Positions 45,248 to 61,833 of a DNA stretch of 64,000 nucleotides are shown piece after piece. The notes beneath the pieces were generated by a model, which saw only the letters and a list, made by a program, of their open reading frames with translations, had not been told where the DNA came from and ran no database searches. This DNA is from Streptomyces olivochromogenes (lineage in GTDB: Bacteria; Actinomycetota; Actinomycetes; Streptomycetales; Streptomycetaceae), in the NCBI RefSeq assembly GCF_001514115.1, contig NZ_KQ948463.1:62001-126000 (forward strand). The letters run 5' to 3'. A program made the translations under genes and the position numbers. Every line of letters starts with the position of its first letter. Position 1 is the first letter of the stretch.

Positions 45248-47851
45248 TCACCAGCTGTCGCCGTCCTCACGGTCGTACGCGTTCTCGCGGCCGTACGCGT
45301 CCTCGCTGTCGTACGGGTGGAGGCCGTCCGCCGGGGAGTTCTGGCGGGAGCGGACGGTGTCCACCACGCCCATCCGCAGCGGGGTGAGCCGGACCAGGCC
45401 GGCGTAGCGTCCCGACGAGGTCCACAGCGTCTGCTCCGGCGGTACGCAGCCGGTGGTCCGCCAGGTCTTCTCGACCTCGTCGCGCACGGCCTCCGGCGCG
45501 AACCTGATCCACACCGCGGCCGCCGGGTCCCGGCTGAGCAGCGTTCCCTGCTCGGGTGAGGAGAGTTGGACCACGGCCTGCCGGTCCGCCTCCATGCCGA
45601 CCAGGTCGGCCACCCGGCGCGGGTCGGTGCCCAGCAGGTTCGCCGAGCCTGCCCGGGTGCGGTGGTCGGCGGCGAACGGGGGTGGGGCCAGTACTCCGTT
45701 GTGCTGGAGGTGGCGGCGGGCCGTCGAGAGCAGGTCGCGGACCCGTTCCTCGGTGCGCCGGACGGCGAGGGCACCGGCCTGGCCGCGCTCGACGGCACCC
45801 CAGTAGGGCTCCATCGCCACCATGGCGGCGTCCGTCAGATCACCGGCCAGGACGGCGACGAGCTCCGGTCCGCCCTCGCCGTTCTCACGGTCCAGCCAGC
45901 GCGGAACCCCCGCGGTGCGGTCCGCCCACGGGTCGGCGGGCCCCGCGGACTCGCCCTGCCCGCCGGGCTCGCCGGGCTCGCTCCAGGAAGCCCCGTCCTG
46001 CCAGGCGTACGCGCTCGCCCAGTCGCTGTCCCCGTCGTCGGGCACCGCGAACGCGTCCGTCTCCAGGACCGAGGTACTGGCCAGCCAGTCGTCCGCGTCG
46101 AGCGGCTCGGGACCGAGCGCGCCGGTGACCGTGGGCCGCTCGGGCTCGGGCACCGCCTCGGCGGCCGCGGCGGCGGCCGTCGCCCGCAGCATGCCGGCGA
46201 CGGACCGGGCGGCGTCGGCGCAGTGCAGGCGCTCCTCGACGGCCCAGTGTTCACGGACCGCCTCGGCCAGCAGCGCGTCGAGCCCGGCCAGGGCCTTGCG
46301 CAGCGCGGCGGTGGCGTGGAAGGCCGCCCAGGAGTCGATCGCGGCGCGCCACAGCCGGCGTGCCGTCTCCACCGCGACACCGAGGCCCACCAGGAGACCG
46401 ACGGCGCTCAGCCAGAGCGGGGGCCCGACCGCGTACGCCACCGCCACACCGGCCGCGGCGCCACCGAGTGCCGCGGCCCGGGGACCCCAGCCCCAGCGGG
46501 CCGGGCGTCCCGCGCCCCGCAGCCTGGACGCGCCGAGCAGCGCCACCGCGACGAACACCAGCGGGACGGCGATCGCCAGCACCGCCAGGGGCCCCCGCCA
46601 CAGGGCCCCGAGCAGCCCCGCCACGGCCGCCGCGGGCAGCGCGCCGCGCCCCGTGGCCACGGGGCCGTTGCCCACGGCGGGCCGCCGGGACACCGCTTCG
46701 GTGGAGTGCTCGGCGAGTTTGCGCACCAGTGCCGAACCCGGTACGGGCTCCACCCGCCCGGCCAGTCCGGTGAAGCGCTGGGCCACGGACCGCAGGGCGA
46801 GCCCCTGTCCCAGCAGCTTTCCGGCGAACTCCCGCAGGCCCTCGCCGATCCGCTCCCCCATGCCCTCGGCCGAGGGCACCCGCAGGCCGAGGGCCCCGAG
46901 CCGGGCCGCCGTCTCGGCGGCGGACGGCGCCGTACCGGAGCCGCCGCCGCGCAGGGCCGTGCCGACGAGGTCCCGGTACTCGCCGAGCGCCTGGTGCGCC
47001 TGGTCGAGGTCCGTCTCGAACGCCTGCCTGCGGGAGGCCCACAACAGCCCGGGCAGGGAGCGCAGTCCGGCCAGCGCGTCCTCGGCGTAGTCGAGGGCCC
47101 CTGCGCAGGCGGCGTAGGTGCTGTCCGCCACGCCGCCCGGCTCCCGGTGCCGTTGGTCGCGGCCGCCCCGGCCCGCCACCAGGCTCCGCAGCGGCTCCGG
47201 CAGATCGGCGCCGGAGGAGGCGGTCACCAGCAGGTCGGGGGCGAGTTCGGTGTCCTCGCCCGCGAACCTGAGGAGCGCGTCGCGCCAGGCCCGGTCGCGC
47301 ACCTCCAGCGGCAGGTCCTGCTCCAGCAGCCGCACGCCGGGCGCGGCGACGGCGTCGGGCAGCGCCCCGAGGCCGTCGAGGACCTTCAGGTAGACGTCCG
47401 GGACCGACAGCACGTCCACCAGGACGGCGAGCGCCTCCGGGGCGTCGGGCTCGGGCTGTTCCAGGGCCGTGCGCGCGGAGCGCAGATCGCCCGCCCACAG
47501 CAGGGCGGTGCCCGAGGCCCGCAGCACCGCGGGCCGTACCAGGCGCCGGTCGGGCTGGAAGGCCTCGTCCTCGCCCGCGTACGAACCGGGTGCGCTGCCC
47601 ACCAGCAGGACCAGGATCCTGACCTCGCCCACGGCCCGGTAGGCGGTGAGCAGTTCGTACTGCCGCTGGTGGTCGGTCAGCCCGGCCGGGGTGTCGACCA
47701 CCAGGAACAGCGGGTCGTCGGGTTCGGGCAGCCCGGCCCTGCCCAACTGCCGGGCGACTCCGGCCCGCAGGGCCTTGGCCGTGTCGAGTTCCGCCGCGCC
47801 GCTGCGCAGGTCCAGCTGGATGACGGTGCCGAGGTCTTCGGACGTCTTCAC
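45248..47851 (-). CDS. Large membrane protein of unknown function in GTPase operon
   Basis: An 867-residue protein. The N-terminal 200 residues look alpha/beta and GTPase-like in pattern (DPLFLVVDTPAGLTDHQRQY, then ILVLLVGSAPGSY), but no P-loop is present. A long helical region follows, then four membrane segments around 405-500 (LPAAAVAGLLGALWRGPLAV, LAIAVPLVFVAVALLG, AALGGAAAGVAVAYAVGPPL, LWLSAVGLLVGLGVAVETA). The C-terminal 350 residues are helical and acidic. The ATG overlaps the tubulin-like stop (ATGA), and 58 bp separate it from the GTPase gene. I infer a membrane platform for the complex; I do not recognise the family. Confidence 0.65.
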   Translation of the reverse strand: MKTSEDLGTVIQLDLRSGAAELDTAKALRAGVARQLGRAGLPEPDDPLFLVVDTPAGLTDHQRQYELLTAYRAVGEVRILVLLVGSAPGSYAGEDEAFQPDRRLVRPAVLRASGTALLWAGDLRSARTALEQPEPDAPEALAVLVDVLSVPDVYLKVLDGLGALPDAVAAPGVRLLEQDLPLEVRDRAWRDALLRFAGEDTELAPDLLVTASSGADLPEPLRSLVAGRGGRDQRHREPGGVADSTYAACAGALDYAEDALAGLRSLPGLLWASRRQAFETDLDQAHQALGEYRDLVGTALRGGGSGTAPSAAETAARLGALGLRVPSAEGMGERIGEGLREFAGKLLGQGLALRSVAQRFTGLAGRVEPVPGSALVRKLAEHSTEAVSRRPAVGNGPVATGRGALPAAAVAGLLGALWRGPLAVLAIAVPLVFVAVALLGASRLRGAGRPARWGWGPRAAALGGAAAGVAVAYAVGPPLWLSAVGLLVGLGVAVETARRLWRAAIDSWAAFHATAALRKALAGLDALLAEAVREHWAVEERLHCADAARSVAGMLRATAAAAAAEAVPEPERPTVTGALGPEPLDADDWLASTSVLETDAFAVPDDGDSDWASAYAWQDGASWSEPGEPGGQGESAGPADPWADRTAGVPRWLDRENGEGGPELVAVLAGDLTDAAMVAMEPYWGAVERGQAGALAVRRTEERVRDLLSTARRHLQHNGVLAPPPFAADHRTRAGSANLLGTDPRRVADLVGMEADRQAVVQLSSPEQGTLLSRDPAAAVWIRFAPEAVRDEVEKTWRTTGCVPPEQTLWTSSGRYAGLVRLTPLRMGVVDTVRSRQNSPADGLHPYDSEDAYGRENAYDREDGDSW

Positions 47852-50800
47852 TCCGGGTCACCGTCCCAGGGGTTGCGGCGGGGGCGTTCGCGCTCGCCGT
47901 CGTCGCCGTACGGGCCGGGGTCACCGGGTTCGTCCCAGGGCACGGACGGCCGGTCGGCGCCGCCGGAGCGCCCGTTGACGCGGTCGCCCCGATCACCGCG
48001 ATCACTCCGATCAACGCGGTCACTCCGATCACCGCGGTCGGCGTCGTACCCGTCGTCGTAGTCGTCCACGGACGCGCGGCGAGAGCGTTCCTCCGTGCCG
48101 CTCGGGTACTTGTCGAAGGAGGCGCGCGGTGCGGTGCCCCAGTCGTCGTCATCGGGCACGGCACGCCCGGGTTCGGGGAACTCCTTGCGGACGCGCGGCG
48201 CGGGAGTTCCGCCGCGTACGTGCTCCAGCAGCGTGCGCAGCGTCGGCTGGACGGCGCGCTGGTCCCCGAACTCGGTGTCCAGCGCGGCCGGCAGTGTCTT
48301 CGCCCAGAACTCCCACAGCGGGCGCACCCATCCCTCGACCCGCTCGCCGCCGCGCTCCCGTCGCTCGGCCAGCAGCTCCAGCTGACGCGGGGCGGTCTTC
48401 TCGACGAGTTCGACGAAGAGCGGATGCGGTTCGCTCACGCTCCTGGCCAGACCCAGCGGCTGAGCCCCCATCAGTTGACTGCAGTACTCCTCCACGGTCC
48501 GTTCGTCGTCGAGGACGGTCCAGCGTTCGTAACTGCGCAGCAGCTCCGCCCAGCTCGACACCCCGCCGGGGAAGTCCCCCAGCCGCAGCCGGACGCCGGG
48601 CACATGGGCGCCCTTCTCGGGGAACAGCCGCAGCCTCAGCCGTTCCGGCGACGACGGGTCGCCGTCCACCACGTCGACCTGGCCGTTCCACATGCAGCAC
48701 AGCAGCCGGTGCAGGATGACGCGGCGGTCCTCCTCGCTGCTGACCATCCAGCTGTCCCGGTAGCCGAGCCGCTGCCGCCAGCGCAGCACGTCCTGGGCCT
48801 GCTCGGAGTCCTTCGCCCTGGCCCACTGACGCAGCACCTTGCGGGCCTCGGGGACCTGGGTGAGGCTCATCTCGCTGCGGAAGAGGACCACGGTGACGGA
48901 GTCGCTCTCCACTCCCCGGTACTCCACGGAGTTCTTGGCGTCGGACGGCAGCCGCAGCGCCTTGCCGAGGTACTCCTGCACCTCCTCCACGGCCTGCACG
49001 CGCGGGTGGGTGACCAGGACCCGCAGCGGTCCGGTGCCCTCCGGGGTGAAGCCCACCGGCAGCAGCCCGGTCAGCTTGCGGCCGAACAGGTCGAGCGCCT
49101 CCTTGCTGACCTGGTCGGCGGCGTCCGCGTCGCCCGCCGCGGCGGCCAGCAGGGTGCCCATGGCCGGCAGCAGCGGGCGTTCCTCCAGGTGTTCGCCGCT
49201 CTCCGCGAACAGCCGGGTGATGCGGCCCTCCAGCTGTGCCTTGACGACCGCGACCGCGTTGTCCGGATTGCGGCGGCTGAGGGTGTGGACCTCGCGCCAG
49301 ATGTCCCCGTCGATCATCCTGAGCAGGAGCGCGGCCTCGTCGTCGTTCTCGCGCATTCCCTCCCGGCGGATCAGCCGGGTGACCACGTCCTCGTAGAAGT
49401 GGTTGAGGGTGCGCTGCGGCGGCAGCAGATACGAGATCCCGGTGCGGTCCTCGTACAGTTCGAGGCCCTTCTGCGCGGAGATCTTGCGTTCCTGGTCGGA
49501 GTGTTTGCGGAAGGCGTTGACCAGGCGTCCGAGGTCGGCCCCGGCGGTGGCCGCCGGGGGCTGCCACTGCTGCTGCTGTTCCCGCCAGGCCTCGTGCCAC
49601 ACGGTCCGGCTGCGCCACTGGTACCAGAGGTCCTGCTCCTGGAGCGCCGCCTGTACGTCGTCGTCGCCCCAACGGGCCGGTGACATACCGGCCAGCCGCC
49701 CCTTGATCCTGGGCGTCTTGGGCGGCTGATCGGTCACGCCCGGCGGGCGCTGGGGGGCGCGGGAGCGGCTGTCGAGCATGCCGAGGAAGCCGATCCGGGC
49801 GATCGCCTCGTCGCTGCCGGGGACGCCTCTGACGATGCGTTCGGCGAGGAAGGGGTCCACGGTCTGGAGGAGTTTGTCGATGGCGGGGCGCGGGGCGAAA
49901 CGGTCGGCCATCGAGGCGGCCTGGCGGTCGGCGAGGGACTGGAGGTCGGACAGCAGGCGCTGCATGTCCGCGACCCGTTCGCCGAGCGCCTGCTCGATGG
50001 CCTTGCCGCCGCGCGGCAGCGGATCGGGTTCCGGGACGGCCAACTGGGCTCGTTCCCACAGCTCTTCGAGGTGGGAGTCGGCGAACAGCTGCCGGATCAG
50101 CGGCACCGCGTTGTCGCGCAGCGCGGTACGGGGCCGCTCCACGAGGTCGGTGACCGCCTCCCGCAGCAGTCGGCCGGCCACCAGGTCGGCCAGTTGGTCC
50201 ATGGGGGCGGTCATGGACGCCACCAGGCTGGTGGAGACGCCCTGCCGGCCGATGCCGGTGGGGGACACGGCGCTGCGGTGCACACCCCGGTTGATGAAGC
50301 TGGCGGCGAAGGTCTGGAAGTCGTCGTCGGTCGCCGTCGCCCGGCCCCTGGGGCGGCTGTCGCCCAGTTCGGTGCCGATCAGCGACATCACCAGGGAGAC
50401 GATGGAGCGGCGCAGGTCGTCCTGGCGGATGCCGGCGGTCGGGCTGAACAGGAAGGCGGTGGGCAGGATGCCGCTGCGCAGCCGGATCGGTGTGGTGCCC
50501 GGGTAGCGGATGCCGAGCCCGGAGTCGAGGTCGAGGTCCAGGTCGCCGATCTCCGTTCCCTCGCTCGGCGCGTTCTGCGCGTCGACCAGCCGGAACAGGT
50601 CGACCAGCGCGCGGGCCGCGTTGAGTTCCGCCTCCCGTCCGCCGCCGCCCGCCGAGGAGAACGAGGACGGCATGACGACCAGCGGGTAGATCTTCACCCC
50701 GTCGAAGCGGCGCAGCTGGAAGGCGTGGTTGATGAGGTGCAGATAGTCCAGGAAGATCCCGGCGCCGGTGCCTCCGGCCACCGAGAACGCGACGAACACG

Positions 50801-51357
50801 TCGCAGCCGTTGACCTTGCCGCCGCCCAGCTCGGCCAGTTCACCTGCCGACTTGGCGATCGCGTCGATCGCCTGGAGCAGCGGCTCCAGGACCGGGGCGA
50901 GGCTGTGCCGGAGCGTGGCGAACAGGGCGGCCCGTCCGACGGTGGGCAGTTGGCCCGCGCCGTTGTGCAGCGGGGTGACCTTCGGTTCGTCGACGCGCGG
51001 CGGCAGCCAGTCGGCGACCTCGTCGCGCAGGCTCGCCCGGAGCATCTTGGTCAGTTCGGGTGACGCGTCGAAGTTCGGCAGCAGGTTGTGGGTGGCCCGT
51101 GAGGTACGGGAGTACGCGGCCCGCAGCGAGGGGTCCACGTTGAACTGGGGCAGCCGCTGGAGGTCGGACTCGCTGTAGTCCGCGTAGACGAACTGGAGGC
51201 AGTCGGGCAACTGGTAGGGGGCGTGTCCGCTGAGGTGGCTGAGCGCGACGCCGTCCGGCCCGCACAGCTCGGCGCGCAGTTTGCGTTCCAGTTCGGCGCC
51301 GACCAGGCCACCGGTGCCGCCCAGGCCGACGAAGAGCATCGGCTGGAAGATCTTCAT
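47848..51357 (-). CDS. Tubulin/FtsZ-like protein (Tubulin_2 type)
   Basis: A 1169-residue cytosolic protein from ATG 51357 with GGGGAGGAAA upstream. It opens MKIFQPMLFVGLGGTGGLVG, the nucleotide-binding start of tubulin-like proteins, and has FVAFSVAGGTGAGIFLDYLH at about 189-208, the counterpart of the tubulin signature GGGTGSG. A GTPase-domain-like region is followed by some 700 residues of mostly helical sequence with no close parallel that I know, and an Asp/Arg-rich disordered tail. Tubulin_2 (PF13809) genes often accompany vWA and GTPase genes in bacterial operons. It may polymerise on GTP and scaffold the system; catalytic T7 loop residues could not be identified. Confidence 0.75.
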   Translation of the reverse strand: MKIFQPMLFVGLGGTGGLVGAELERKLRAELCGPDGVALSHLSGHAPYQLPDCLQFVYADYSESDLQRLPQFNVDPSLRAAYSRTSRATHNLLPNFDASPELTKMLRASLRDEVADWLPPRVDEPKVTPLHNGAGQLPTVGRAALFATLRHSLAPVLEPLLQAIDAIAKSAGELAELGGGKVNGCDVFVAFSVAGGTGAGIFLDYLHLINHAFQLRRFDGVKIYPLVVMPSSFSSAGGGGREAELNAARALVDLFRLVDAQNAPSEGTEIGDLDLDLDSGLGIRYPGTTPIRLRSGILPTAFLFSPTAGIRQDDLRRSIVSLVMSLIGTELGDSRPRGRATATDDDFQTFAASFINRGVHRSAVSPTGIGRQGVSTSLVASMTAPMDQLADLVAGRLLREAVTDLVERPRTALRDNAVPLIRQLFADSHLEELWERAQLAVPEPDPLPRGGKAIEQALGERVADMQRLLSDLQSLADRQAASMADRFAPRPAIDKLLQTVDPFLAERIVRGVPGSDEAIARIGFLGMLDSRSRAPQRPPGVTDQPPKTPRIKGRLAGMSPARWGDDDVQAALQEQDLWYQWRSRTVWHEAWREQQQQWQPPAATAGADLGRLVNAFRKHSDQERKISAQKGLELYEDRTGISYLLPPQRTLNHFYEDVVTRLIRREGMRENDDEAALLLRMIDGDIWREVHTLSRRNPDNAVAVVKAQLEGRITRLFAESGEHLEERPLLPAMGTLLAAAAGDADAADQVSKEALDLFGRKLTGLLPVGFTPEGTGPLRVLVTHPRVQAVEEVQEYLGKALRLPSDAKNSVEYRGVESDSVTVVLFRSEMSLTQVPEARKVLRQWARAKDSEQAQDVLRWRQRLGYRDSWMVSSEEDRRVILHRLLCCMWNGQVDVVDGDPSSPERLRLRLFPEKGAHVPGVRLRLGDFPGGVSSWAELLRSYERWTVLDDERTVEEYCSQLMGAQPLGLARSVSEPHPLFVELVEKTAPRQLELLAERRERGGERVEGWVRPLWEFWAKTLPAALDTEFGDQRAVQPTLRTLLEHVRGGTPAPRVRKEFPEPGRAVPDDDDWGTAPRASFDKYPSGTEERSRRASVDDYDDGYDADRGDRSDRVDRSDRGDRGDRVNGRSGGADRPSVPWDEPGDPGPYGDDGERERPRRNPWDGDPE

Positions 51358-51493: not shown

Positions 51494-53809
51494 TCACAGG
51501 TACGACCCGTACGAGCTCCCGCTCTCGCCGGTACCGGTCGCGGAGGTGGTGGAGCCCGCGGTCGTCCGCGCGGAGGGCCGCGGTCGGCGGACCTTCGAGG
51601 CGCGGGTGTCCTCACCGAGGGCCAGGCTCAGCGTGTCGGTCAACTGAACCTGGCCGCGGGCGGGCAGCGGGGTCCGGCCGCCGCCGCGCTTGCGCAGGAC
51701 CGCTCCGCCCTCGGGGCTGCGCTGGACGGCGTACGGGCCGTGGGCGCGCCGTTCGATGCGCGGGCTGCGGTGGGGTTCGACGACGGCGAACTCGTACCAC
51801 TGCTTGTGTCCGTGTCCGGCGAGGTGCTCCCCGAGGACGTTGCCCTCCGCGGAGACCAGCCGCAGCACCAGGCCGAACGGGTCCCTGCGGGTGCGGCGCT
51901 GGCGCAGCCAGGCGAGGACCGCCGCGGTGGCCAGCGCGATCAGTGCGGCGGCGGACACGAACGCCCACCAGAACTTCGCCCAGATGCCCGGCTCGGGTGT
52001 CACCCGGACCGAGAGCGGGGTGCGCACCAGTGTCCGGTCGTGGTCGGTGGTGTCGACCACGGTCACGGTGCCGCCGAGTCGCAGCCCGCCGTCGCCGAGG
52101 CGGTCGCCGAAGACGTCGCGGGGGGCGACCTCGACCGTGACCTTCCGGGTGCCGGACTCGCCGGGCTTCACCTGGATCTCGGCCGGGGTGACCGTGAGCA
52201 GCCCGGACTTGAGGTCGGCGACGGACAGCCGCAGGGTGTGCGGGGTGTCGCTGGTGTTGTGGACGGCCAGCGTGCCGGTGACTTTGGAGCCGGGGTGGGT
52301 GTTCGCGGTGGGCAGTTCGAGCGCGGTGGTGACGGGCAGTGCGCCGGGTGCGATCTGGCCGCCCTCGCTGCGGGTGTCGGCGCTCAGCCCCGAGGCCGTC
52401 AGCGTGCCGCTCACCTTCAGTGCCCCGTCGGCGCTCTTGGGGATCCCGACGGAACCGGTGAAGGAGCCGTCGCTCGCCTTGGAGTCGGGCCCCTGGCCGT
52501 CGTCGGTGAGGCGCAGCGCCAGCGGCTCGAAGCCGTCGCCGGTCAGTTCACTGCGGACGCGCAGCCCCTCGTAGTCGCGCGCGTCCTTGATCTCGTAACC
52601 CTCGCGGGTCTGCAGGCGCATGGTCACCGTGACCTTCTCGCCGGCCTGCGGGGACGGCGGGTCCATGGTGATGGCGCCGCGCAACTCGCCCTGCCACAGC
52701 ACGCTGACGGCGACGGGCACCGAGCGGTGGCCCTCCGGCGCCTCGGCCTTCACGCGCCAGGTGCCGGGCACCGGATCGACGATCTTCAGCGCCTCCACGG
52801 TGCCGCTGCCGCCCGCCAGCTCGAATCCCGACTTGCGGTACGTCCCCGTGGTGGGGACCTGGTGGCCGTTGGGGTCGAGGTAGGTGATCTTCACCTGGGG
52901 GTCGCCCTTGTCGACGACGATGCTGCCCACGGTCGCCAGCGGGGAGATGCCGATCTCCAGGGTGGCGGGCGGCCGCTTGCTGGGGCCCTGTTCGTGGCGC
53001 AGGCAGTGGGCGGCGGCGAAGATCTTCTCCAGCATGGGGCCGACGTCCTTGGCCCCGGAGACCTTGCCCGCACTCGGGCGGGCGGAGGGCAGTTCGACGC
53101 AGCCCTTCTGGTATCCACCGGCGGCGATCCGGTCGAGCTGCGCCTTGTCCGGGTCGGGTCCGAAGCCGAGCGGCCAGATCTGTACGTGCTGGGCGGCGGC
53201 GTTCTCGAGTTCCTGCGTCAGCTGCTGTTCGCCCTCGTCCTTGCGGTGCGCGGGGTCGCCGTACTTGGGGCTGTCCTGGACGTCCAGCTTTCCGTCGGTG
53301 AGGAGGAACAGCACGCGGGGCTGGGAGGGGTCGGTGCCGGTGGTGAGGTCGTGGACTCCCTGGCGTATCGCGCTCGGGAAGTCGGTGCCGGTGCCCTCGT
53401 TCTTCGTGCGGCCGCGCAGCTTGCCGACGCAGGTGCCGATCGTCTCGCGGCCCGCCGCGTCCAGCGTGGTGCGCGGGCAGACGGGGTCCACCGCGCGCTG
53501 GGCGCCGGACTCGGCGGCGGCGAAACCGAAGACGGTGGCGTGGGAGGACGAGGAGACGTCGCCGAGCGCGATGCGTGCGGCGGCGGCCTTCTCGGCCTTC
53601 ATGTCCTCGGGCGCGAGGCTGGCGGACTCGTCCACGGCGATGGAGTAGTTGACCGCCGGGAAGGCGGGTTCGGAATCCGCCGCCGGCACCGGATCATGAC
53701 CGGCGGGTGCCAGCAGGGACACGAGCACCGCCATACCGCCGAGCGCGCCGACCGCGGCGCGGCGCACCCGGCCCCTTCCTGTCTGCCGTCTTCCCGTGAT
53801 GCTTTCCAC
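51494..53809 (-). CDS. Exported, membrane-anchored vWA domain protein
   Basis: A 771-residue protein from GTG 53809 (GGGGGACGG upstream). A signal peptide (VGALGGMAVLVSLLAPAGHD) leads to a vWA domain at about 50-270 with an intact MIDAS: DESAS (60-64), GTGTDF and LTDGK. Several Ig-like beta-domains follow (about 290-600: HNTSDTPHTLRLSVADLKSG and others). One membrane span (AKFWWAFVSAAALIALATAA) is followed by a C-terminal cytosolic tail of about 140 residues. Metal-dependent ligand binding outside the cell could be passed to the cytosolic GTPase/tubulin proteins encoded around it. It lies between the PycTM-like and tubulin-like genes, 57 and 136 bp apart. Confidence 0.8.
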   Translation of the reverse strand: MESITGRRQTGRGRVRRAAVGALGGMAVLVSLLAPAGHDPVPAADSEPAFPAVNYSIAVDESASLAPEDMKAEKAAAARIALGDVSSSSHATVFGFAAAESGAQRAVDPVCPRTTLDAAGRETIGTCVGKLRGRTKNEGTGTDFPSAIRQGVHDLTTGTDPSQPRVLFLLTDGKLDVQDSPKYGDPAHRKDEGEQQLTQELENAAAQHVQIWPLGFGPDPDKAQLDRIAAGGYQKGCVELPSARPSAGKVSGAKDVGPMLEKIFAAAHCLRHEQGPSKRPPATLEIGISPLATVGSIVVDKGDPQVKITYLDPNGHQVPTTGTYRKSGFELAGGSGTVEALKIVDPVPGTWRVKAEAPEGHRSVPVAVSVLWQGELRGAITMDPPSPQAGEKVTVTMRLQTREGYEIKDARDYEGLRVRSELTGDGFEPLALRLTDDGQGPDSKASDGSFTGSVGIPKSADGALKVSGTLTASGLSADTRSEGGQIAPGALPVTTALELPTANTHPGSKVTGTLAVHNTSDTPHTLRLSVADLKSGLLTVTPAEIQVKPGESGTRKVTVEVAPRDVFGDRLGDGGLRLGGTVTVVDTTDHDRTLVRTPLSVRVTPEPGIWAKFWWAFVSAAALIALATAAVLAWLRQRRTRRDPFGLVLRLVSAEGNVLGEHLAGHGHKQWYEFAVVEPHRSPRIERRAHGPYAVQRSPEGGAVLRKRGGGRTPLPARGQVQLTDTLSLALGEDTRASKVRRPRPSARTTAGSTTSATGTGESGSSYGSYL

Positions 53810-53866: not shown

Positions 53867-54415
53867 TCAGCGGGCGGTCAGGCTCCAGGCCAGCGCCAGC
53901 GCCGTGGAAGGGGCGAGCGAGCCCACTCCCCAGCGGATGGCCCGGTACTTGGCGGACAGGATCGAGCTGACGTCCACGGCCTGGACGAGCAGCCATCCGG
54001 CGGTGTCGCGTCCGGCCTCGGTGACGTCGGCGGACAGCCCCGCGAGGTCGCGGGGGGCCAGCAGGTCGCCGAAGTACGTCACCCCGTCCCGGCCGCGGAC
54101 CGTGCGGGTGCGCGGCATGAGCGCCCCGACCAGCGCGGTCACCGCGACCACCCAGAGCACGCTCGCGAGGATCAGCGTCACGTCGGCGAGCCCGCGCCAG
54201 TCGGGCGGGCCGTGCCGCCCGATCAGGAACGCGGGCAGCGCCAGCGTTCCCGAGAGCAGTACGGCCGCTTTCGCGTCGGCCCGGCCGAGGTCCTCCCTGA
54301 CCGTGCTCAGCAGCCGTTCGGCGATGCGCTCCCCCCGGTCGGACCCGTGCGGACCCCCGTCCGGCACGGGCCCGACCGGGTCGCAGGAGGTGCGCGCCGG
54401 GCCGTCGCCGGTCAC
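53867..54415 (-). CDS. PycTM-like membrane effector
   Basis: A 182-residue membrane protein. An amphipathic helix (RIAERLLSTVREDLGRADAK) leads directly into TM1 (AAVLLSGTLALPAFLIG); TM2 is VTLILASVLWVVAVTALVGA; a soluble segment and a third, weaker hydrophobic helix end the protein. The helix-ADAKAA-TM pattern is that of the Pycsar effector PycTM family (PF18967), which, on binding cyclic UMP or CMP, damages the membrane to abort phage infection. GTG 54415 lies right behind GGAGGAGG and overlaps the SPFH gene stop (GTGA); ATG 54439 is less likely. A cyclase is encoded three genes upstream in the same operon. Assignment is by pattern; without a search I cannot exclude another two-TM family. 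Confidence 0.7.
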   Translation of the reverse strand: MTGDGPARTSCDPVGPVPDGGPHGSDRGERIAERLLSTVREDLGRADAKAAVLLSGTLALPAFLIGRHGPPDWRGLADVTLILASVLWVVAVTALVGALMPRTRTVRGRDGVTYFGDLLAPRDLAGLSADVTEAGRDTAGWLLVQAVDVSSILSAKYRAIRWGVGSLAPSTALALAWSLTAR

Positions 54416-55509
54416 CGGTCCTCCTCCGCCCAGGACCATCCGTCGTCCCGGGAGCGTGTGCGGCGGCGCGGCGGTTCGGGTTCGGCGTCCTGGGGGTCGC
54501 CCGAGTAGGGCTCTCTCGCGCGTGGTCCCCGGTCCGCCCGGGAGGGCGGTTCGTCCGCCACCCAGTCCGGCGTGAACGGCTCGTCGGCGGCCGGCGCCAG
54601 CTGCGGTGTCTCGCGGCGGGCGGGCAGCGAGCCGATGGGCCCCTGGAGGGGGTGGCGACCCTGGTTGAGGAGGTTGAGGGCCTGTGTCTCCATGTCGTTG
54701 GACTGGATCTGGCCGCTGGCGACCATGGCGAAGAGCCGGTCGACACGTTCCTTCTCGTCCTGCCGCCCCTCCTGGCGGATCTTCTCCAGGAAGTCCTTGG
54801 CCGCCTCGGGCTCGGCCGCCAGCATGTAGCTGAGCTGTTCCAGCTCACCGCCCTGCAGCATCTTGCGGAACGCGGCCTGATGCACCCGGGTCACCTCGGC
54901 CGAGGCGTGCGCGTCCCGGATGCCGTCCATGTGCTCGATCGTCCGGTCGTCCACCCGCAGGCGGACGTACAGCCTTACCCGCAGGCCGAGTTCGGTGCCC
55001 AGCTCGGCCCAGCGACTGCCGGCGCACTCCAGGGTGATGGCACGGTCGGCCTGTTCGGCCTGGGTCACCCGGTAGGCCGAGGACACCTCGCGCAGCCGCT
55101 CCAGCACCGGGGCGGTGAGCCGCTGGGCGACGTCGGTGACGACCTCGGTGGCGGCCAGATGGGGATCGGTCACCGTCCAGTGGATGTCCACCTCGGCCTT
55201 GAAGAAGGTCGTCCCACCCGCGGCGGGCAACTCCATCTGAAGCGTCGTCACATAGGTGCCCAGCGCGATCTCGCAGACGGTGTACGGCCGGGCCAGCGCC
55301 CGCTTGTCGACGTGCCGGACACCGGAGACGGTGACCACGCTGTAGCCGCCGTTGCGGTAGAACAGCACCGAGGCCTTCTGGGCGCTCACCTGCGGGAACC
55401 CGCCCGTCGGCGCGTACTCCCGCAGGAAGGGACCCACCGGCCCCGCGGCCGCCTTCCGCGCCCTCAGCCGCTCCCTCGCCTTCGCCCTCGCGTCCTGGTC
55501 CTCAGCCAT
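54412..55509 (-). CDS. SPFH/band-7-like protein
   Basis: A 365-residue cytosolic protein. Residues 20-190 follow the SPFH/prohibitin pattern: SVLFYRNGGYSVVTVSGVRH, YTVCEIALGTYVTTLQMELP, FFKAEVDIHWTVTDPHLAAT, then a helix starting VVTDVAQRLTAPVLERLREV; a coiled helix (ASAEVTRVHQAAFRKMLQGG) and a Pro/Arg-rich tail follow. There is no membrane anchor, unlike flotillins. SPFH proteins form ring-like scaffolds at membranes; here it probably holds the effector or NTPases of the operon. It begins at ATG 55509, overlapping the P-loop/HEAT stop by 8 bp, and ends overlapping the PycTM-like start. Confidence 0.75.
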   Translation of the reverse strand: MAEDQDARAKARERLRARKAAAGPVGPFLREYAPTGGFPQVSAQKASVLFYRNGGYSVVTVSGVRHVDKRALARPYTVCEIALGTYVTTLQMELPAAGGTTFFKAEVDIHWTVTDPHLAATEVVTDVAQRLTAPVLERLREVSSAYRVTQAEQADRAITLECAGSRWAELGTELGLRVRLYVRLRVDDRTIEHMDGIRDAHASAEVTRVHQAAFRKMLQGGELEQLSYMLAAEPEAAKDFLEKIRQEGRQDEKERVDRLFAMVASGQIQSNDMETQALNLLNQGRHPLQGPIGSLPARRETPQLAPAADEPFTPDWVADEPPSRADRGPRAREPYSGDPQDAEPEPPRRRTRSRDDGWSWAEEDR

Positions 55510-58024
55510 GGCTGTCCTCCTCGCCCGTCCTCTCCCGCGTCGGGACGGCGAGCCACCACAGGGCACGCGCAGAAGCGTCGGGGAGCGGATTCTCCGGATC
55601 GTTCATCATTCGGCGCAGCAGCCAGTCCAGCCGCCGCCGGTCGTTCTCCTCGGTCGCCAGCGCGGGCAGCAGCGCCGCCAGCCCCGGCCGGGTCCCCTCG
55701 GTGCCGTCCCCGCGCACCGCCGAACGCAGCAGGGACTCCAGCGCGTCCAGGGCCACATCCTTCGAGCGCGCCGTGTTCAGCGCGCTCCACATCAAGTCGG
55801 CCATGGGGAGCACGAGTTCGGGGCGGGGGACGGCGAGGGCGAGCGGCAGTGGCCAGTCGGCGCGGTCGGCCAGCGGGGAGTCGGGCTCGTCGGACAGCAC
55901 CTCGTCCACCGAGGTCACGGCGAGCCGGACGGTGGTCACCAGACCGAGGTCCTGGTACTCCGCGCGCTTGTGGTGGGTCCAGTCGGCCATCCGTCGCAGC
56001 ACCTTGGCACCGTCCGGGAGTGCCAGCAGCCGTACGGCGTTGAACGAGGCGACCGCCAGCTGCTCCCCGTCGTCGCGGACCCCGATGCGGGCCAGGGCGT
56101 CCAGGGCGTCCTCCGTCGTGTCCGCGGCGTTCCCGTATCCCAGTGCCATCGCCGCGGTCCAGCGCAGCGACTTCGTCCCGTACCTGCTCCAGTCGTCGAC
56201 CAGCTTGCGTACCGCCTTGCGGTGCGAGGCGTGACCGGCCGCCTGGTCGAGCGTGGTGGCCGCGAAGATCCTCCGGCGGGGCGTGGCCGCCTCGGCGAGC
56301 GGCCGGATCAGCTCCGCGTATCCGTGGTCGAAGTCCCGTGCGCACAGCTCCCCGGCGGCCACCGCTGCGCGCATCCACACCTGGGGGCGTGGATCGTCCG
56401 CGAGCAGCCGCAGCCAGCGCACGATCGGTGCCCGGACGGGGAAGTGCCGGTCCCAGATCTCGGTCAGCACCGCGGAGGGCAGGGCGGATCCCCGGTACCA
56501 GATCAGCCGGGCCGGAACCTCGGTCCCGGCCACCTCGAGCCGGCCGTCGGTCAGTTCGGCTCGGGAGAGAGCGAGATCGGCTTCCGGGTCGTCGCAGAAC
56601 AGCGGGCGGGCCGGGGTGTGGTCCGGATCGCACTGCACGGACAGTTCCCAGGTCAGCAGGTGGGCGGCGGCGGCCACGGCGCTGTGCGAGGCGCCGCCCA
56701 GTACGGCGAGCGCGATACGGAACGCCACCGGGTGGAACAGGGCCGCCGTACCCGGCCGTCCCGCGCCGCCCTCCGGCTCGGTGGGAGGTGCCGTCAGCGC
56801 CCGGTCCACTCCGGCGAACCACTCCTGGGCCTGGTCGGCGGCGAGGCTGCGGCAACCGGCCAGCAGCTCGTCCCGGGAGACCTCCCCCAGTTGGTGTGCG
56901 GCCAGCAGCGAGGCGAGCAACTCGGCCTCGGCGGGGCGCAGGTCCTTCAGTCCGACCGCGTCCGTGACGTCCTGGCGGACCGCCAGTTCCTCCGCCCCGG
57001 CGAGCAGGTCCGCCAGCCGGACCTCACCGTCCGGGGCGGCGGCGACATGCTCCTCCAGCCGTTCCCGTAACCGGGTGGTGAGCAGTTCCTGGGTGGGTGC
57101 GGGAGGGCAGAGCCTGCCGTACCGCCCGGCCAGCAGCGGGTTGGCCGCCGACCCGACCGTGACGACGACCACCGCGTACGACGCGCACCGGGCCAGGGCC
57201 GCGGCGAGCCCGTCGAGGTCCATCTCGTCCGGGGGCAGCGCACCGGGCCCGGTGAGGGAGAGCTCCAGCAGGTACCCGGTGCCGCGCCGCGCCTCCTCGC
57301 CCTCGCCGGCCAGGGAGCCCGCCAACTTCCGCACCCCACCGTCCGGATCGACCCGGCGCACCCGGGATCCGGCCCCGGGCTCCGTGCCCGTGGCGTCCGC
57401 CGCGAGGCCGGTGACCTCGTCGAGGAGCGAGAGCGCGGTGCTGGTGCGTCCGGTGCCGGGGGCGGCGCCGAGCACCAGCAGCCGACGGGCGCCGAGGGCG
57501 TTGCGCAGCTGTACGTATCCCTGCGGTTCCACATGGACGCGGCGGAGCCTGCGCAGTTCCTCGTCGGGCACGGGTCCGCTGCGCATCCCCGCGCCGGAGT
57601 GGCGGGCGTCCATCCGCAGGTGGATGTCGCCGATGTGGGCGCTCTGGAAGTACGAGCGGTCGAAGCTGTTGAGGTCCCGGCCGGTGTCGAACAGCATCCG
57701 GGTGGCGCGGCGGGCCCGCGAGGCGGCGGCGAGGTCGGTGGTCCCGTCCTCGCCCTGCTCCTCGGCGAGCGGGTCGCGGGTGTGCTCCTTGAACCGCCCC
57801 GCGGCGCGCTCGCGTTCCTCCTCCTGCTTCTTCCCCTGGTCCTTCTTGGCGTCGCCCTCTTCCGGGGCGTCGTTGCCTGCGGCTCCCTCGTCGCCTTCGG
57901 CCTTGCCCTCGTCGGCACGGGGCGGGTCGTTCCTGGCCTTCCCGTCGGCCTCGGGCGCACGGCCGTCGGCCCCCTTGCGGGGTGCGGGCTCGGCGCCGCC
58001 GCCCGCTTGCTGATCGTCGGTCAC
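55502..58024 (-). CDS. P-loop NTPase with HEAT-like repeats
   Basis: An 840-residue cytosolic protein. The first 85 residues are a charged, disordered tail. A short motif SYFQSAHIGDIHLRMD (about 124-139) precedes the P-loop at about 186-194 (LVLGAAPGTGRTSTALSLLD). I could not see a clear Walker B acid; the expected strand reads SYAVVVVTVG. From about 480 on the sequence is all-helical, with HEAT-like pairs (PIVRWLRLLADDPRPQVWMR, AAVAAGELCARDF, RWTAAMALGYGNAAD). This recalls STAND-type signal NTPases whose repeats sense a ligand. GTG 58024 follows GAAGGG and lies 5 bp from the cyclase stop, so the two genes are translationally linked. Confidence 0.7.
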   Translation of the reverse strand: MTDDQQAGGGAEPAPRKGADGRAPEADGKARNDPPRADEGKAEGDEGAAGNDAPEEGDAKKDQGKKQEEERERAAGRFKEHTRDPLAEEQGEDGTTDLAAASRARRATRMLFDTGRDLNSFDRSYFQSAHIGDIHLRMDARHSGAGMRSGPVPDEELRRLRRVHVEPQGYVQLRNALGARRLLVLGAAPGTGRTSTALSLLDEVTGLAADATGTEPGAGSRVRRVDPDGGVRKLAGSLAGEGEEARRGTGYLLELSLTGPGALPPDEMDLDGLAAALARCASYAVVVVTVGSAANPLLAGRYGRLCPPAPTQELLTTRLRERLEEHVAAAPDGEVRLADLLAGAEELAVRQDVTDAVGLKDLRPAEAELLASLLAAHQLGEVSRDELLAGCRSLAADQAQEWFAGVDRALTAPPTEPEGGAGRPGTAALFHPVAFRIALAVLGGASHSAVAAAAHLLTWELSVQCDPDHTPARPLFCDDPEADLALSRAELTDGRLEVAGTEVPARLIWYRGSALPSAVLTEIWDRHFPVRAPIVRWLRLLADDPRPQVWMRAAVAAGELCARDFDHGYAELIRPLAEAATPRRRIFAATTLDQAAGHASHRKAVRKLVDDWSRYGTKSLRWTAAMALGYGNAADTTEDALDALARIGVRDDGEQLAVASFNAVRLLALPDGAKVLRRMADWTHHKRAEYQDLGLVTTVRLAVTSVDEVLSDEPDSPLADRADWPLPLALAVPRPELVLPMADLMWSALNTARSKDVALDALESLLRSAVRGDGTEGTRPGLAALLPALATEENDRRRLDWLLRRMMNDPENPLPDASARALWWLAVPTRERTGEEDSHG

Positions 58025-58029
58025 TGCGA

Positions 58030-58866
58030 TCAGCCCTTCCGTCGGCCGGCGTCGCCGGTGGTCCGCCCGATGTGCACGGGCTGCTGGTAGACGTTGTCGC
58101 TGTGCTGCGACATGTCGCCGTGGACGGTGTAGCGGGCACCAGGGCCGTCGGCCGGGTCGTCACACTTGACGTCCTGGACTTCCTGGACGTCATCGGCGCG
58201 ACCGGCGGTCGTGTCCGCGTTGGGCGGCGGGTCAGCGGCCGGTGCGGCAGGCGGTACGGGTGCGGCGGGGATCTGCGGAGCGGGTCGGCCTGGAAGGTGG
58301 AACCAGGCGGTGACCTCGCCCTCCTTGAGCTCCAGGCGGGCGGAGGAGTAGTGCGCGGGCTCGATGAACTTGCCGCCGCCGCTGACCACGTCCTCGTAGA
58401 GCGACTGGGAGGTCACCAGCACGAGGTCGGCCCGCTCGGCGTCCAGCAGTCGCCGGGCGAGCGGCGAGTCGGCCAGCCGGCAGGCGAGGTCGACCGCGCG
58501 CCCGCTGATGCCCCGGCCGTCGTGCCGGACAGGCCCGACGTGCATGCCCACCCGAAGCCCGAGGGGGACACGCAGGCCGCGGTTCTCGTCCCGCAGATTC
58601 TCGTGCACCTCGACCATCCACAGGCCGAGCAGCCGGGTCACCGCGATCCGGCCGACCACCGACAGCAGCACACCGTCGCCGCGGTCCTCCATGTGTACGG
58701 CGTCGCGCGCCACCTTGGCGTGGGTGAAGGCCGCCTCCAGCACCCGGTAGATCCGCTCGCGCATGCGCTGCTTGTCGACGTCGTCGTACTCCCCGGAACG
58801 CCGGGCGTCGACGCTGATCACCAACTCGTAGCGTGCTTCGGTGAGATCCATCGCGTCGTGGTCCAC
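58030..58866 (-). CDS. Class III nucleotidyl cyclase, Pycsar-like context
   Basis: A 278-residue protein with a class III cyclase fold. The two metal-binding aspartates are at the expected places: ELVISVDARRSG (Asp20) and HMEDRGDGVLLSV (Asp64). The later LRVGMHVGPV and GISGRAVDLACRLADS correspond to the dimer arm and the N-x3-R transition-state region; Asn is replaced by Asp and Arg is kept. Residues 190-255 are a Pro/Ala linker; the tail YTVHGDMSQHSDNVYQQPVH resembles short oligomerisation motifs of conflict proteins. No sensor domain is fused. With a PycTM-like gene in the same operon it may make cUMP or cCMP on infection. GTG 58866 (AAGGGGG upstream) is chosen over GTG 58890. Confidence 0.72.
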   Translation of the reverse strand: MDHDAMDLTEARYELVISVDARRSGEYDDVDKQRMRERIYRVLEAAFTHAKVARDAVHMEDRGDGVLLSVVGRIAVTRLLGLWMVEVHENLRDENRGLRVPLGLRVGMHVGPVRHDGRGISGRAVDLACRLADSPLARRLLDAERADLVLVTSQSLYEDVVSGGGKFIEPAHYSSARLELKEGEVTAWFHLPGRPAPQIPAAPVPPAAPAADPPPNADTTAGRADDVQEVQDVKCDDPADGPGARYTVHGDMSQHSDNVYQQPVHIGRTTGDAGRRKG

Positions 58867-58932
58867 CCCGTGCCCCCTTGCTCTCTCCACTTGCCGTCCC
58901 CCTCAGCGTCGGGCCCGGGGACGAGGGCCGTC

Positions 58933-58948
58933 TGTAGCCGTTTACACA
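58933..58948. promoter_or_regulatory. Possible CRP-type operator before the cyclase gene
   Basis: TGTAGCCGTTTACACA is an imperfect dyad with TGT/ACA ends and a 6-bp centre, the spacing of CRP/FNR sites (TGTGA-N6-TCACA). It lies 67 bp before the cyclase start and just downstream of the CRP-like gene. Only the outer three positions of each arm match, so this is a guess. Confidence 0.3.
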
Positions 58949-58980
58949 CGACGAGGCGTGGGTTACGACAAGGCGTGGGT

Positions 58981-59694
58981 CTACTCCTGATGACCGTCCG
59001 CGAGGAGTGCGAGCAGTTCGGGGTCGAGAATCTCCACCATCCGGTTGCCGGTACGCACGACGTGCTGGGTGCGCAGCAGCTTCAGTGCCTTGGCGACGGC
59101 TTCCCGGGTGGCTCCGATGGTGGCGGCCAGTTCGTCCTGGGCCAGTTGGACGACGGTGCCCGTGTGCGTGGCGCCGCCCGGTACGGCCGGGTGGTAGGGG
59201 CCGGAGGGCTCGGCTCTCGACAGTTCGGTGAGCCGGCTGGCCAGCCGTTGCAGCACGGTGAGCGAGGCGAGCGCGGACCGCTCCTGGTCGGCGCTGCGCA
59301 GCCGGAAGGTGAGCTGGCGTATCACCAGACCACTGACGCGGGGGTGCAGCGCGAGGAACCGGCGGAACGCGTCCCCGGAGATGACCTGGGTCTCGGTCGG
59401 ACCCAGCGCGCGCACGGTGGCGCTGCGGGGATGCGGGTCCAGGGCGGCCATCTCGCCGAGCAGTTCACCGGGACCCCGCAGACCGAGTATCAGCCGCGTG
59501 GCACCCCGGTCCGTCGCCACGGAAACGGTCACCCAGCCCCGAATGATGATCAGGACGTGACTGGACCGGTCGCCCTCCGTCAGAAGATGGGCATCGGCCG
59601 CGTAGTGCTTCCGGCTGCCGAGAGCCATCACGCTCTCGCGCTCCTGAGGGGTCAGAGCGCGTGCGAAAGCCAGCTCATTGCCGAGCAGCCCCAT
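58981..59694 (-). CDS. CRP/FNR-family regulator with cyclic-nucleotide-binding motif
   Basis: A 237-residue regulator. The cNMP-binding jelly roll (about 15-125) has the phosphate-binding cassette LLGEMAALDPHPRSATVRAL with the Glu and Arg that hold ribose and phosphate in CRP, so binding of a cyclic nucleotide is likely. The C-terminal winged HTH (about 165-235) contains QLAQDELAATIGATREAVAK followed by ALKLLRTQHVV. It is upstream of, and in the same direction as, the cyclase gene, 114 bp away. It could sense the product of that cyclase and adjust the operon. ATG 59694 lies seven bases after GGGGGG and gives the normal family length; ATG 59763 would add 23 residues without a site. Confidence 0.85.
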   Translation of the reverse strand: MGLLGNELAFARALTPQERESVMALGSRKHYAADAHLLTEGDRSSHVLIIIRGWVTVSVATDRGATRLILGLRGPGELLGEMAALDPHPRSATVRALGPTETQVISGDAFRRFLALHPRVSGLVIRQLTFRLRSADQERSALASLTVLQRLASRLTELSRAEPSGPYHPAVPGGATHTGTVVQLAQDELAATIGATREAVAKALKLLRTQHVVRTGNRMVEILDPELLALLADGHQE

Positions 59695-60106
59695 GGCCAC
59701 GCCCCCCGCCGCAATCGTGCCGCCTGACTTTTCAGAGGCGTTGATGGTGGCAGAGCGAAGCATTGAGACGAGTGAATTACGCCAGATCGGCCGTACTGGT
59801 CGGTAAGTGGCGAAGTGCCAGGTGGGTCGCCCGGGCGTGCCGTCCCCTCATGACACCCCACCAGCGGTGACCGCGGCCGGACCGTCCGCCTCCGCTCCCG
59901 CCCCACCGACGACCTTGAGGTCAGGACCGGCGCCGAACGGCCGGCCCCCTCGATACGGGGAACCGGCCAGGGCGGCGGACTTGGCGAAAAATCAGGTTTC
60001 CGCCGCCGCAGGGGTGGTGGGGAGGTGGTGACGGGGTGAGGGGACGGTGTCCGGTTCTTCGCGCGTCACACCGGCTCTTCGCGCGTCACACCGGTCGGCC
60101 GGATGC
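59695..60106. other. Intergenic region, no gene seen
   Basis: A 412-bp gap between the CRP-like gene's start and the end of the CBM2 gene. It must hold the promoter of the CRP gene, probably in the less GC-rich part around 59765-59800. No ORF with a start signal and no strong hairpin were found. Confidence 0.5.
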
Positions 60107-61630
60107 TCAGCCGACGGCCTGGCAACTGGCCGTGTTGAGGGTGAAGTCGCGCGCGGCCGAGTTGGCCCCGGTCCAGGAACCGACGAAGCCGAAGGTGAAG
60201 GTGCCGTTCGCGGTGACGGTCTTGTTGTAGTCGGCGGCGGTGGCCGTGACGTGGGAGTCGTCCTGGGTGAAGGTACCGTCCCACATCTGGCCCACGTGCT
60301 GGCCGTCCTTGAAGGTCCAGCCGAGGCTCCAGGTGGCGAGGGCCTTGGTGGAGGTGACGGTGACGGTGGCCTGGAAGCCGTCCGGCCACTCGCTCACGAT
60401 CTCGTACTTCACCCGGCAGTCCGGCGCGGCGCTCTTCGGCGAACTCGTCACCCCGCCCTGCTTCCCGGCGGGCGACGAGGACTCGCCCTGGGCCTCCTGA
60501 TCGGAGTTGCCCGCCGGACGCGAGGTCGAGTCCGCCACCGCGGGCGAGCCCGCCGTCGCCGTCCCCGATCCCGAACCCGAACCCGAACCCGACTTCGTCT
60601 TCGAGCCCGAGGGGAGGGAGGGGCCCGGGTCCGCAAGGGACTGCCCGTCCGTCGCCTCGCCCTGCGCGGCGTTCGCGTCGCCGCCCTTCGAGCCGCCGAA
60701 GGGCATCAGCGAGACCGTGAGCGCGAGTGCGGACACGAGGACGGCCGTGACCAGGATCCCGGTCCGGCCGATCCGGGGCCGGACCGGCTTGCCCTCGTCC
60801 AGCCCCGTGTCCACCGCCGCGTCCGTGCGTCCGCCGATCATGCCGGCCTCGGCGGCCCGGCGCCGCCGTTCGAGATACGCGAGGCCGCCCCAGCCGATCA
60901 CACCGCTGGAGAGCGCCGCGGGCAGCCCGCCGCCGTGCAGCCGCAGACAGGCGGCGGCCTCCGCGCACTCGACGCAGCGCGCCAGGTGCCGGGAGAGGTC
61001 CTCGGGCGTCTCGGCGCTGGGTGAGCGGGTGACCGCGTCGAGGAGCCGCGCGTAGCTGCGGCAGTAGGCGTCCATCGGCGTGTCGAGGTGGTTGCGGTGG
61101 CAGCGGTCCCGGAACAGCACCCGCACCTGGGCGAGTTCGGTGGCCGCGGCCGCCGGATCGAGACCGAGCCGCCGGGCCACCGCGGACATGGGCAGCGACT
61201 CGACTTCGGCCAGCCACAGCAGAACGGCGTCCGGCTCCTGCATGTCCCGGAGGCCGCGCAGCGCGAGCGGGCGGTGCAGCGGCGGTCCGACGTAGCGGGC
61301 GGCCTTGTCGGAGTGGAGCCACAGGCGCAGGTCGGGGTCGAGCCGATGGCCGAGCCCGTTCGTCTCCCAGGCGGCGGCCACGGTACGGACGGAGGCCAGC
61401 AGCAGCGGAATGCGGGGCAGCCTGAGCGCCCGGCGTCCGGTACCGGTACTCTTCGATGCCGCGGTGGCGGCGCGCAGTTCGTCGATGCCGTGTGTGAACG
61501 CCTCGGTCGCCAGCTGCGTGGCCGAGGCCGAACCGGACGTGCACAGATCGGCGTACGACAGGACCGCGTCCCAACACTCCGAGAGCAGCGCGGCCTCGGC
61601 GGCGTTCTGGGGGGTCGGCAGGTCAGGCAT
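60107..61630 (-). CDS. Membrane protein joining sigma/anti-sigma-like region to external CBM2
   Basis: A 507-residue protein. The cytosolic N-terminus (1-240) resembles a degenerate sigma factor: a helical region-2-like part and a region-4-like HTH (LPMSAVARRLGLDPAAAATE). It is followed by an anti-sigma-type zinc motif, HLARCVECAEAAACLRLHG. One membrane span (GILVTAVLVSALALTVSL, about 290-308) leads to a Ser/Gly-rich linker and a C-terminal CBM2 domain (about 405-507: YEIVSEWPDGFQATVTVTST, SLGWTFKDGQ, FTFGFVGSWTGANS), bounded by two Cys that should form a disulfide. CBM2 binds cellulose, chitin or xylan. It thus looks like a one-protein sensor of insoluble polysaccharide. ATG 61630 has GGAG seven bases upstream. 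Confidence 0.8.
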   Translation of the reverse strand: MPDLPTPQNAAEAALLSECWDAVLSYADLCTSGSASATQLATEAFTHGIDELRAATAASKSTGTGRRALRLPRIPLLLASVRTVAAAWETNGLGHRLDPDLRLWLHSDKAARYVGPPLHRPLALRGLRDMQEPDAVLLWLAEVESLPMSAVARRLGLDPAAAATELAQVRVLFRDRCHRNHLDTPMDAYCRSYARLLDAVTRSPSAETPEDLSRHLARCVECAEAAACLRLHGGGLPAALSSGVIGWGGLAYLERRRRAAEAGMIGGRTDAAVDTGLDEGKPVRPRIGRTGILVTAVLVSALALTVSLMPFGGSKGGDANAAQGEATDGQSLADPGPSLPSGSKTKSGSGSGSGSGTATAGSPAVADSTSRPAGNSDQEAQGESSSPAGKQGGVTSSPKSAAPDCRVKYEIVSEWPDGFQATVTVTSTKALATWSLGWTFKDGQHVGQMWDGTFTQDDSHVTATAADYNKTVTANGTFTFGFVGSWTGANSAARDFTLNTASCQAVG

Positions 61631-61833
61631 GGGGGGCTCCTGCATCAACTGCTTCCAGGTGCAACGTCTAGAAACGTCTGAACAACGTGATCGTCAACTC
61701 ACCCTCTGTACAGGGGAGTTGAGGCCGTCTCAACGACGGGGCCCGAGCCTTTCACGCTTTCCACACAACTGACAAGCGAGGTATTCAATTAGCGTGGCAA
61801 GCGGTTGCGGCGCCGTGCGTCCGAACGCGCGCA

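Follow-up and report, generated by a model that had tools for sequence, protein, structure and literature searches.

A 64,000-nucleotide stretch of Streptomyces olivochromogenes DNA (the window) carries a gene for a Crp/Fnr-family regulator (CRP) followed by a gene for a predicted nucleotidyl cyclase. This arrangement raises the question whether the product of the cyclase acts on the regulator and, if so, what the regulator controls. A preliminary description of the locus had proposed that the system's own messenger feeds back on transcription and that this messenger could be cCMP or cUMP. The first half of this proposal was retained, as the pairing of both genes, their distance matrices and a predicted operator indicate that CRP is part of the system and probably its regulator. 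The second half, a pyrimidine messenger, was not supported. With moderate confidence we propose that CRP is a dedicated, cNMP-dependent class II activator that would place a Pycsar-like conflict operon under positive feedback (Table 1).

The reading frame of crp ends with a stop at 58981 and is open up to an ATG at 59763. The start proposed before, ATG 59694, is backed by the orthologs. The protein consists of an N-terminal cNMP-binding domain (PF00027, E 1.2e-18), a C-helix and a C-terminal winged HTH (HTH_Crp_2, PF13545, E 1.1e-12). Orthologs encoded directly upstream of a cyclase share 74–99% identity. Pfam, alignment and conservation all confirmed the earlier claim of an intact cNMP cassette with its Glu and Arg. 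CRP carries LLGEMAALDPHPRSATVRAL, with which the E. coli CRP cassette GELGLFEEGQERSAWV aligns, the length of the cassette differing by one residue. Arg90, Ser91 and Ala92 were found in 75/75 cyclase-linked CRPs, and the ribose-binding acid at position 81 was Glu in 51 and Asp in 24 of them. With a Gly-Glu...Arg-Ser cassette in its CNBD and a winged HTH, whose recognition helix retains the Arg-Glu of CRP, the protein is a member of the Crp/Fnr family. Its score against the cAMP-CRP equivalog NF008732 was 87.2 bits and lay below the cut-off of 266. E. coli CRP reads the base of its ligand by Thr127/Ser128. Base contacts of this type are missing from the window's CRP, which has Ala135/Asp136 instead. 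Asp136 was present in all 75 cyclase-linked CRPs and, in a wider set, in 25/26 linked versus 1/7 unlinked proteins. The housekeeping Crp of the same genome has Thr-Asn at this pair. Two loci (L047 and L049) encode a further CRP homolog in opposite orientation. In their cassette CRP adjoining the cyclase, His-Asn replaces Arg-Ser in the phosphate-binding cassette, so this protein may not bind cNMP.

The neighbour had been described as a cyclase gene in the same direction, which fold, residues and strand bear out: both genes lie on the minus strand, CRP directly upstream, separated by a gap of about 90–114 bp. Homologs and a Shine-Dalgarno-like AAGGGGG make GTG 58866 a more likely cyclase start than 58890. 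No Pfam, NCBIfam or PADLOC cyclase model matched the protein at E ≤ 1. Among its homologs, Pfam Guanylate_cyc matched 2/44 (best E 0.066; no match at E ≤ 1 for the window cyclase), and PADLOC PycC gave weak matches in 8/44 (best 0.0009; again none at E ≤ 1 for the window cyclase). An AlphaFold model built with 44 homologs showed a confident core with pLDDT mostly >90. When this model was compared with known structures, class III cyclases ranked first. The best match was the GTP-adapted triple mutant of Ma1120 (Z 17.4, 2.2 Å, 155 residues), a ranking which by itself is no sign of the substrate since rows within 1 Z are tied. No PycC structure was among the 50 VIA-align matches listed, which excludes nothing. 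The metal-binding Asp28 and Asp72 as well as Glu68, Arg70, Gly127, Asp134 and Arg138 were invariant or nearly so in 80 homologs; Asp28, Asp72 and the transition-state Arg138 occurred in all 80 cyclase sequences readable there. At the position of the transition-state Asn the protein has Asp134. Activity is still possible, because Ma1120 has Ala at this position and is nevertheless active (PMC4215837). Judged by fold and residues, the neighbour is a probable class III nucleotidyl cyclase and presumably catalytically active.

Table 1: Features of the CRP-cyclase locus and of the genes downstream (window positions).
Feature	Position	Strand	Basis
Crp/Fnr-family regulator, 237 aa	58981..59694	-	Pfam domains and orthologs
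Phosphate-binding cassette GEMAALDPHPRSATV (Glu81, Arg90, Ser91)	59410..59454	-	conservation in cyclase-linked CRPs
C-helix Ala135-Asp136, positions of E. coli CRP Thr127/Ser128	59287..59292	-	conservation
Predicted CRP operator TGTGTAAACGGCTACA	58933..58948	-	conservation across loci and genomes
Putative -10-like hexamer GACGCT	58905..58910	-	conserved A and T positions; operator 22 nt upstream
Divergent class III nucleotidyl cyclase (predicted)	58030..58890	-	fold and residues; likely start 58866
P-loop NTPase, STAND-like, HEAT/ARM-like repeats at the C-terminus (probable sensor)	55502..58024	-	AlphaFold, Foldseek
SPFH/Band 7-like protein, start approximate	54412..55509	-	positional homolog in L047
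PycTM-family membrane effector, 190 aa	53867..54439	-	PF18967, PADLOC
vWA-domain protein, accessory module	51494..53809	-	weak vWA/Ig matches (Pfam)
Tubulin_2 protein, accessory module, start approximate	47848..51357	-	PF13809 5.3e-68

In one related genome (L048 in G058) neither metal aspartate of the cyclase is left (VSAGVCGPR, MDRPGGLV), and CRP, operator, NTPase, vWA and tubulin are retained. This catalytically dead cyclase may have another role. Solitary cyclases of the same family were found within far longer ORFs at L093:9974-12454 and L099:8042-11089, without CRP or operator; the one in L099 lies near a transposase-like ORF.

For the pairing of both genes, 100 related genomes were searched for the cyclase and for CRP. 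A genome scan yielded 80 named cyclase loci, all from Streptomyces but one from Wenjunlia and related to one another. In 74/80 of these loci the gene immediately upstream of the cyclase, in the same orientation, encodes CRP. Conversely, of the 35 CRP homologs at E ≤ 1e-28 in the 100 genomes (window excluded), 34 have a cyclase gene within 2.5 kb. The remaining one, L052, belongs to a degraded cassette which kept CRP and NTPase and lost the cyclase and the downstream genes. In a further genome (L042), crp carries a frameshift and most of the operon is gone. The distance matrices of CRP and cyclase were correlated with r 0.94 (0/500 permutations), to which shared descent contributes. The pairing of CRP and cyclase is conserved and not incidental, and the counts rule out a chance neighbourhood. 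The preliminary description had named the same CRP in relatives without the cyclase as an observation that would speak against its proposal; this was encountered solely at the degraded locus L052.

The gap between 58890 and 58981, singled out earlier for footprinting, contains an almost invariant CRP-type operator. The sequence TGTGTAAACGGCYACA was found with ≤1 mismatch upstream of the cyclase in 72/74 CRP-bearing loci. None of 1580 shuffles matched at ≤2 mismatches, the best shuffle having 3. The motif is unique in its own 11.67-Mb genome. In the 100 genomes it has 15 exact matches, each immediately downstream of a gene for a CRP of this family; in 14 cases a cyclase gene flanks the other side, and in the remaining genome (G055) the cyclase is lost. 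A reversed control pattern gave 0 matches in the 100 genomes. The form TGTG-N8-(C/T)ACA is that of a CRP site, with a perfect CACA in some homologs, and it is nearly invariant in 40 promoter regions that are <70% identical outside the motif. We infer that a CRP dimer binds TGTGTAAACGGCYACA.

A CRP bound at this operator could, in principle, answer the cAMP of a housekeeping adenylyl cyclase, i.e., global metabolic control, and not the messenger of the adjacent cyclase. The cassette is canonical, housekeeping Crp homologs exist in nearly all relatives, and Asp136 could accept the N6-amine of adenine. However, the base-contact pair has changed from Thr-Ser/Asn to Ala-Asp with the Asp fixed throughout the linked proteins, and the genomic link of CRP is to the cyclase and not to metabolic genes. 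We regard this explanation as unlikely, though as the likeliest of the rival readings.

A conserved hexamer follows the operator at a distance of 21 nt in most of the 40 diverged promoters and of 22 nt in the window. Its position 2 is A in 31/40 and its position 6 is T in 31/40. These are the two most conserved positions of a -10 element, so the hexamer is a candidate -10. Activator sites of class II CRP promoters are centred at -41.5. If the hexamer is taken as -10, the operator is centred at -41.5 (-42.5 in the window), and its spacing thus appears to fit class II activation. Neither a consensus sigma-70 promoter (-35/-10) nor an RNA element was found in the gap between crp and the cyclase; the former is as expected if the promoter depends on an activator. 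CRP might also act here as a repressor, with the messenger lifting the repression or the ligand-free protein keeping the operon silent. A lone site in a promoter region could block RNA polymerase, and conflict operons are often repressed. The distance to the conserved hexamer and the missing consensus -35/-10 argue for class II activation instead, and repression appears rather unlikely to us. This preference for activation rests on a degenerate -10.

In order to narrow down the messenger, the base-contact residues of both proteins were considered. Clades of PycC select pyrimidines with Y50/D94/R97, F60/K104/F109 or F100/R142/Q144 (PMC11224242). The window cyclase has Ser26, Glu68, Arg70, Gly73 and Leu75 at these positions, i.e., none of the published combinations, although a new clade could differ. 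Its base-contact positions look purine-type. Glu68 and Gly127 correspond to the residue pair introduced into the adenylyl cyclase Ma1120 (K101E/D157G), which gave the best GTP activity among the double mutants and still preferred ATP (PMC4215837). On the receptor side, the equivalent threonines of Clr contact N6 of cAMP or O6/N2 of cGMP (PMC10127613), and PycTIR, a cUMP receptor, reads uracil with an Asn at the position of CRP Ser128 (PMC11224242). Asp136 of the window's CRP would suit an amino group (guanine, adenine, cytosine) and disfavour uracil. The idea of cGMP from a matched cyclase Glu/Gly and CRP Asp136 was weakened, as the subfamilies differ in the residues with which the cyclase contacts the base (E, A, D, K, Q, V), and Asp136 hardly changes. 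For this reason cGMP receives a plurality only. The residues point weakly to a purine cNMP, cGMP first, rather than to cUMP or cCMP.

A messenger cCMP or cUMP as in true Pycsar would make CRP a pyrimidine-responsive activator that amplifies a Pycsar-like immune response through TGTGTAAACGGCYACA. To our knowledge, no transcription factor for a pyrimidine cyclic nucleotide has been described. The operon does contain a PycTM effector, some cyclase homologs match PycC weakly, Arg70 occupies the position of AnPycC Lys104, and CNBDs can read cUMP, as PycTIR does (PMC11224242). Against this stand the absence of all three selecting combinations, the agreement of Glu68/Gly127 with the guanylyl pattern, and an Asp at the position of PycTIR Asn143, which should disfavour uracil. 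An assignment of the cyclase as PycC was rejected, since neither model nor residues fit. Consequently, we consider the pyrimidine reading improbable.

The preferred reading, a dedicated activator, has to account for operons without an adjacent CRP. The expectation that the operator occurs only where CRP is adjacent failed at three loci (L100, L106 and L117), which retain it with one mismatch. Each of these genomes holds a CRP of this family (51–56% identical) in another cassette, beside another operator copy with ≤1 mismatch. The operator at the three loci is explained by CRP in trans, and some genomes probably use one CRP for a second cassette that lacks its own. The operator was absent from the solitary cyclase locus L093 and from L099, whose genome has a housekeeping-type Crp only. 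A different protein, either housekeeping Crp or an unknown factor, might bind the 16-mer while the linked CRP acts elsewhere. This would suit the general CRP form of the site and the three operons that keep it without an adjacent CRP, but is very improbable, because these genomes have CRP in trans beside a near-copy of the site, L099 lacks both this CRP and the site, and housekeeping Crp is everywhere while the site occurs solely beside this CRP. A second subfamily, which includes a diverged cassette in the window's own genome (L051), has a different CRP-type site, TGTGCANNNNGTCACA, before the cyclase.

The usual core of the cassette consists of CRP, cyclase, STAND-like NTPase, SPFH-like protein and PycTM, followed in the window by the vWA/tubulin module. 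This module is absent from several cassettes with an intact core, PycTM is missing in some, and in L047 PycTM lies between CRP and cyclase. The AlphaFold model of the NTPase reached a pTM of 0.77. Foldseek gave weak matches to ARM/HEAT proteins and Avs5, and the L051 homolog matched HEAT and, weakly, nSTAND3; given these weak matches, the NTPase is a putative STAND sensor. The SPFH-like protein itself had no Pfam match, and its positional homolog in L047 matched Band_7 (3.4e-07). PycTM was assigned by PF18967 (2.6e-15, 57.2 bits, over the curated cut-off of 27.2) and by PADLOC (PycTM, 8e-14). The L051 cassette ends with an M48 metallopeptidase (L051:14802-16265; PF01435 1.6e-18) in the place of PycTM in others, which suggests that effectors may be exchangeable.

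We propose the following sequence of events. The STAND-like NTPase would sense an invader, and the cyclase would then make a cyclic mononucleotide. By analogy with Pycsar, this messenger would act on the membrane effector PycTM; given the intact cassette, it would also be bound by CRP. A CRP dimer would occupy the conserved TGTGTAAACGGCYACA between crp and the cyclase and, judged by the spacing, activate the cyclase-NTPase-SPFH-PycTM operon from about -41.5. The outcome would be a positive feedback loop in which the system's own messenger raises transcription of its operon. A defence role of the operon and killing by PycTM are assumed in this scheme. The L048 cyclase without metal aspartates, beside a retained CRP and site, calls for caution on the feedback model. 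If the scheme is true, a messenger that drives transcription of its own operon would explain how an immune system stays quiet and then commits, and a Crp-family factor would enter bacterial immunity. As the operator is single and almost invariant, the feedback idea lends itself to a direct test.

The Pycsar systems known so far are built from a cyclase and a receptor-effector. The present system resembles them in a class III-fold cyclase that shares an operon with a PycTM-family membrane effector. It differs in that the cyclase is no PycC by model or published selectivity residues, the effector lies three genes from the cyclase, and a CRP regulator, a STAND-like NTPase and an SPFH-like protein are added. 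Without a PycC the system was not filed as Pycsar, although it would work like one with a regulator. Among the papers covered by a text search for Pycsar joined with CRP, none described such a system.

CgrA of R. centenum and Clr of S. meliloti, which respond to cGMP or to both cAMP and cGMP, are Crp-family proteins with an intact cassette; their ligand comes from a class III cyclase and is not, or not only, cAMP (PMC10127613, PMC3770947). Their targets lie in development or symbiosis, unlike the conflict operon here, and Clr has Thr140-Thr141 where this CRP has Ala135-Asp136. BrxR/CapW-type regulators are likewise dedicated local regulators of phage-defence operons with suspected nucleotide sensing, but contain a WYL domain (PMC9122601), in contrast to Crp/Fnr here, where the operon itself encodes a likely ligand maker and the regulator is predicted to activate. 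The downstream tubulin and membrane vWA genes match the theme of the actinobacterial GAP1-N2 tubulin/vWA conflict systems of Kaur et al. 2020 (PMC7159879, section 29); the Tubulin_2 match was strong and the vWA match weak. The same source also couples cNMP cyclases with Band 7 domains, and it mentions CRP-like factors near peptide-processing systems. Its GAP1-N2 section describes neither a CRP-cyclase-STAND-PycTM head module nor an operator, and the head module is here also found without tubulin/vWA. Two ORFs of 735 and 914 aa, considered as GAP1-N2/GTPase candidates, had no Pfam match over the cut-off.

Several minor observations concern the surroundings of these genes. A TGTGGCGYAATTCACT near -92 of crp was rejected as more than a weak candidate: it occurs in about half of the close orthologs, at a per-sequence frequency not above chance in most of them, and is lost in distant ones. 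About 285–307 bp upstream of crp (window 59979-60001) lies a block with the consensus AAACCNGAGTTTTCGCC, highly conserved in 41 orthologs, a candidate for another regulatory site or for the promoter of crp. Further upstream the window encodes a protein with a CBM_2 domain (60107-61648, minus strand; 2e-24) and one with a weak radical SAM match (61911-63257, minus strand). Short, look-alike glycine-rich tails occur within one locus at the C-terminus of the cyclase and in the N-terminal region of the NTPase, namely GGDQHGVSGGQVTGDVHLGG and GGAQHGVSGGEVAGDVFMGG in L051 (9840-12883), and likewise in L047:9022-12017 and in the window (58030-58890 and 55502-58024). Their likeness suggests that cyclase and NTPase may pair through these tails. 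Divergent to the CRP gene of L041, a type 2 encapsulin shell protein is encoded (L041:6676-8130, minus strand), which has a cNMP-binding domain of its own (PF19307 7.6e-141, PF00027 7e-17).
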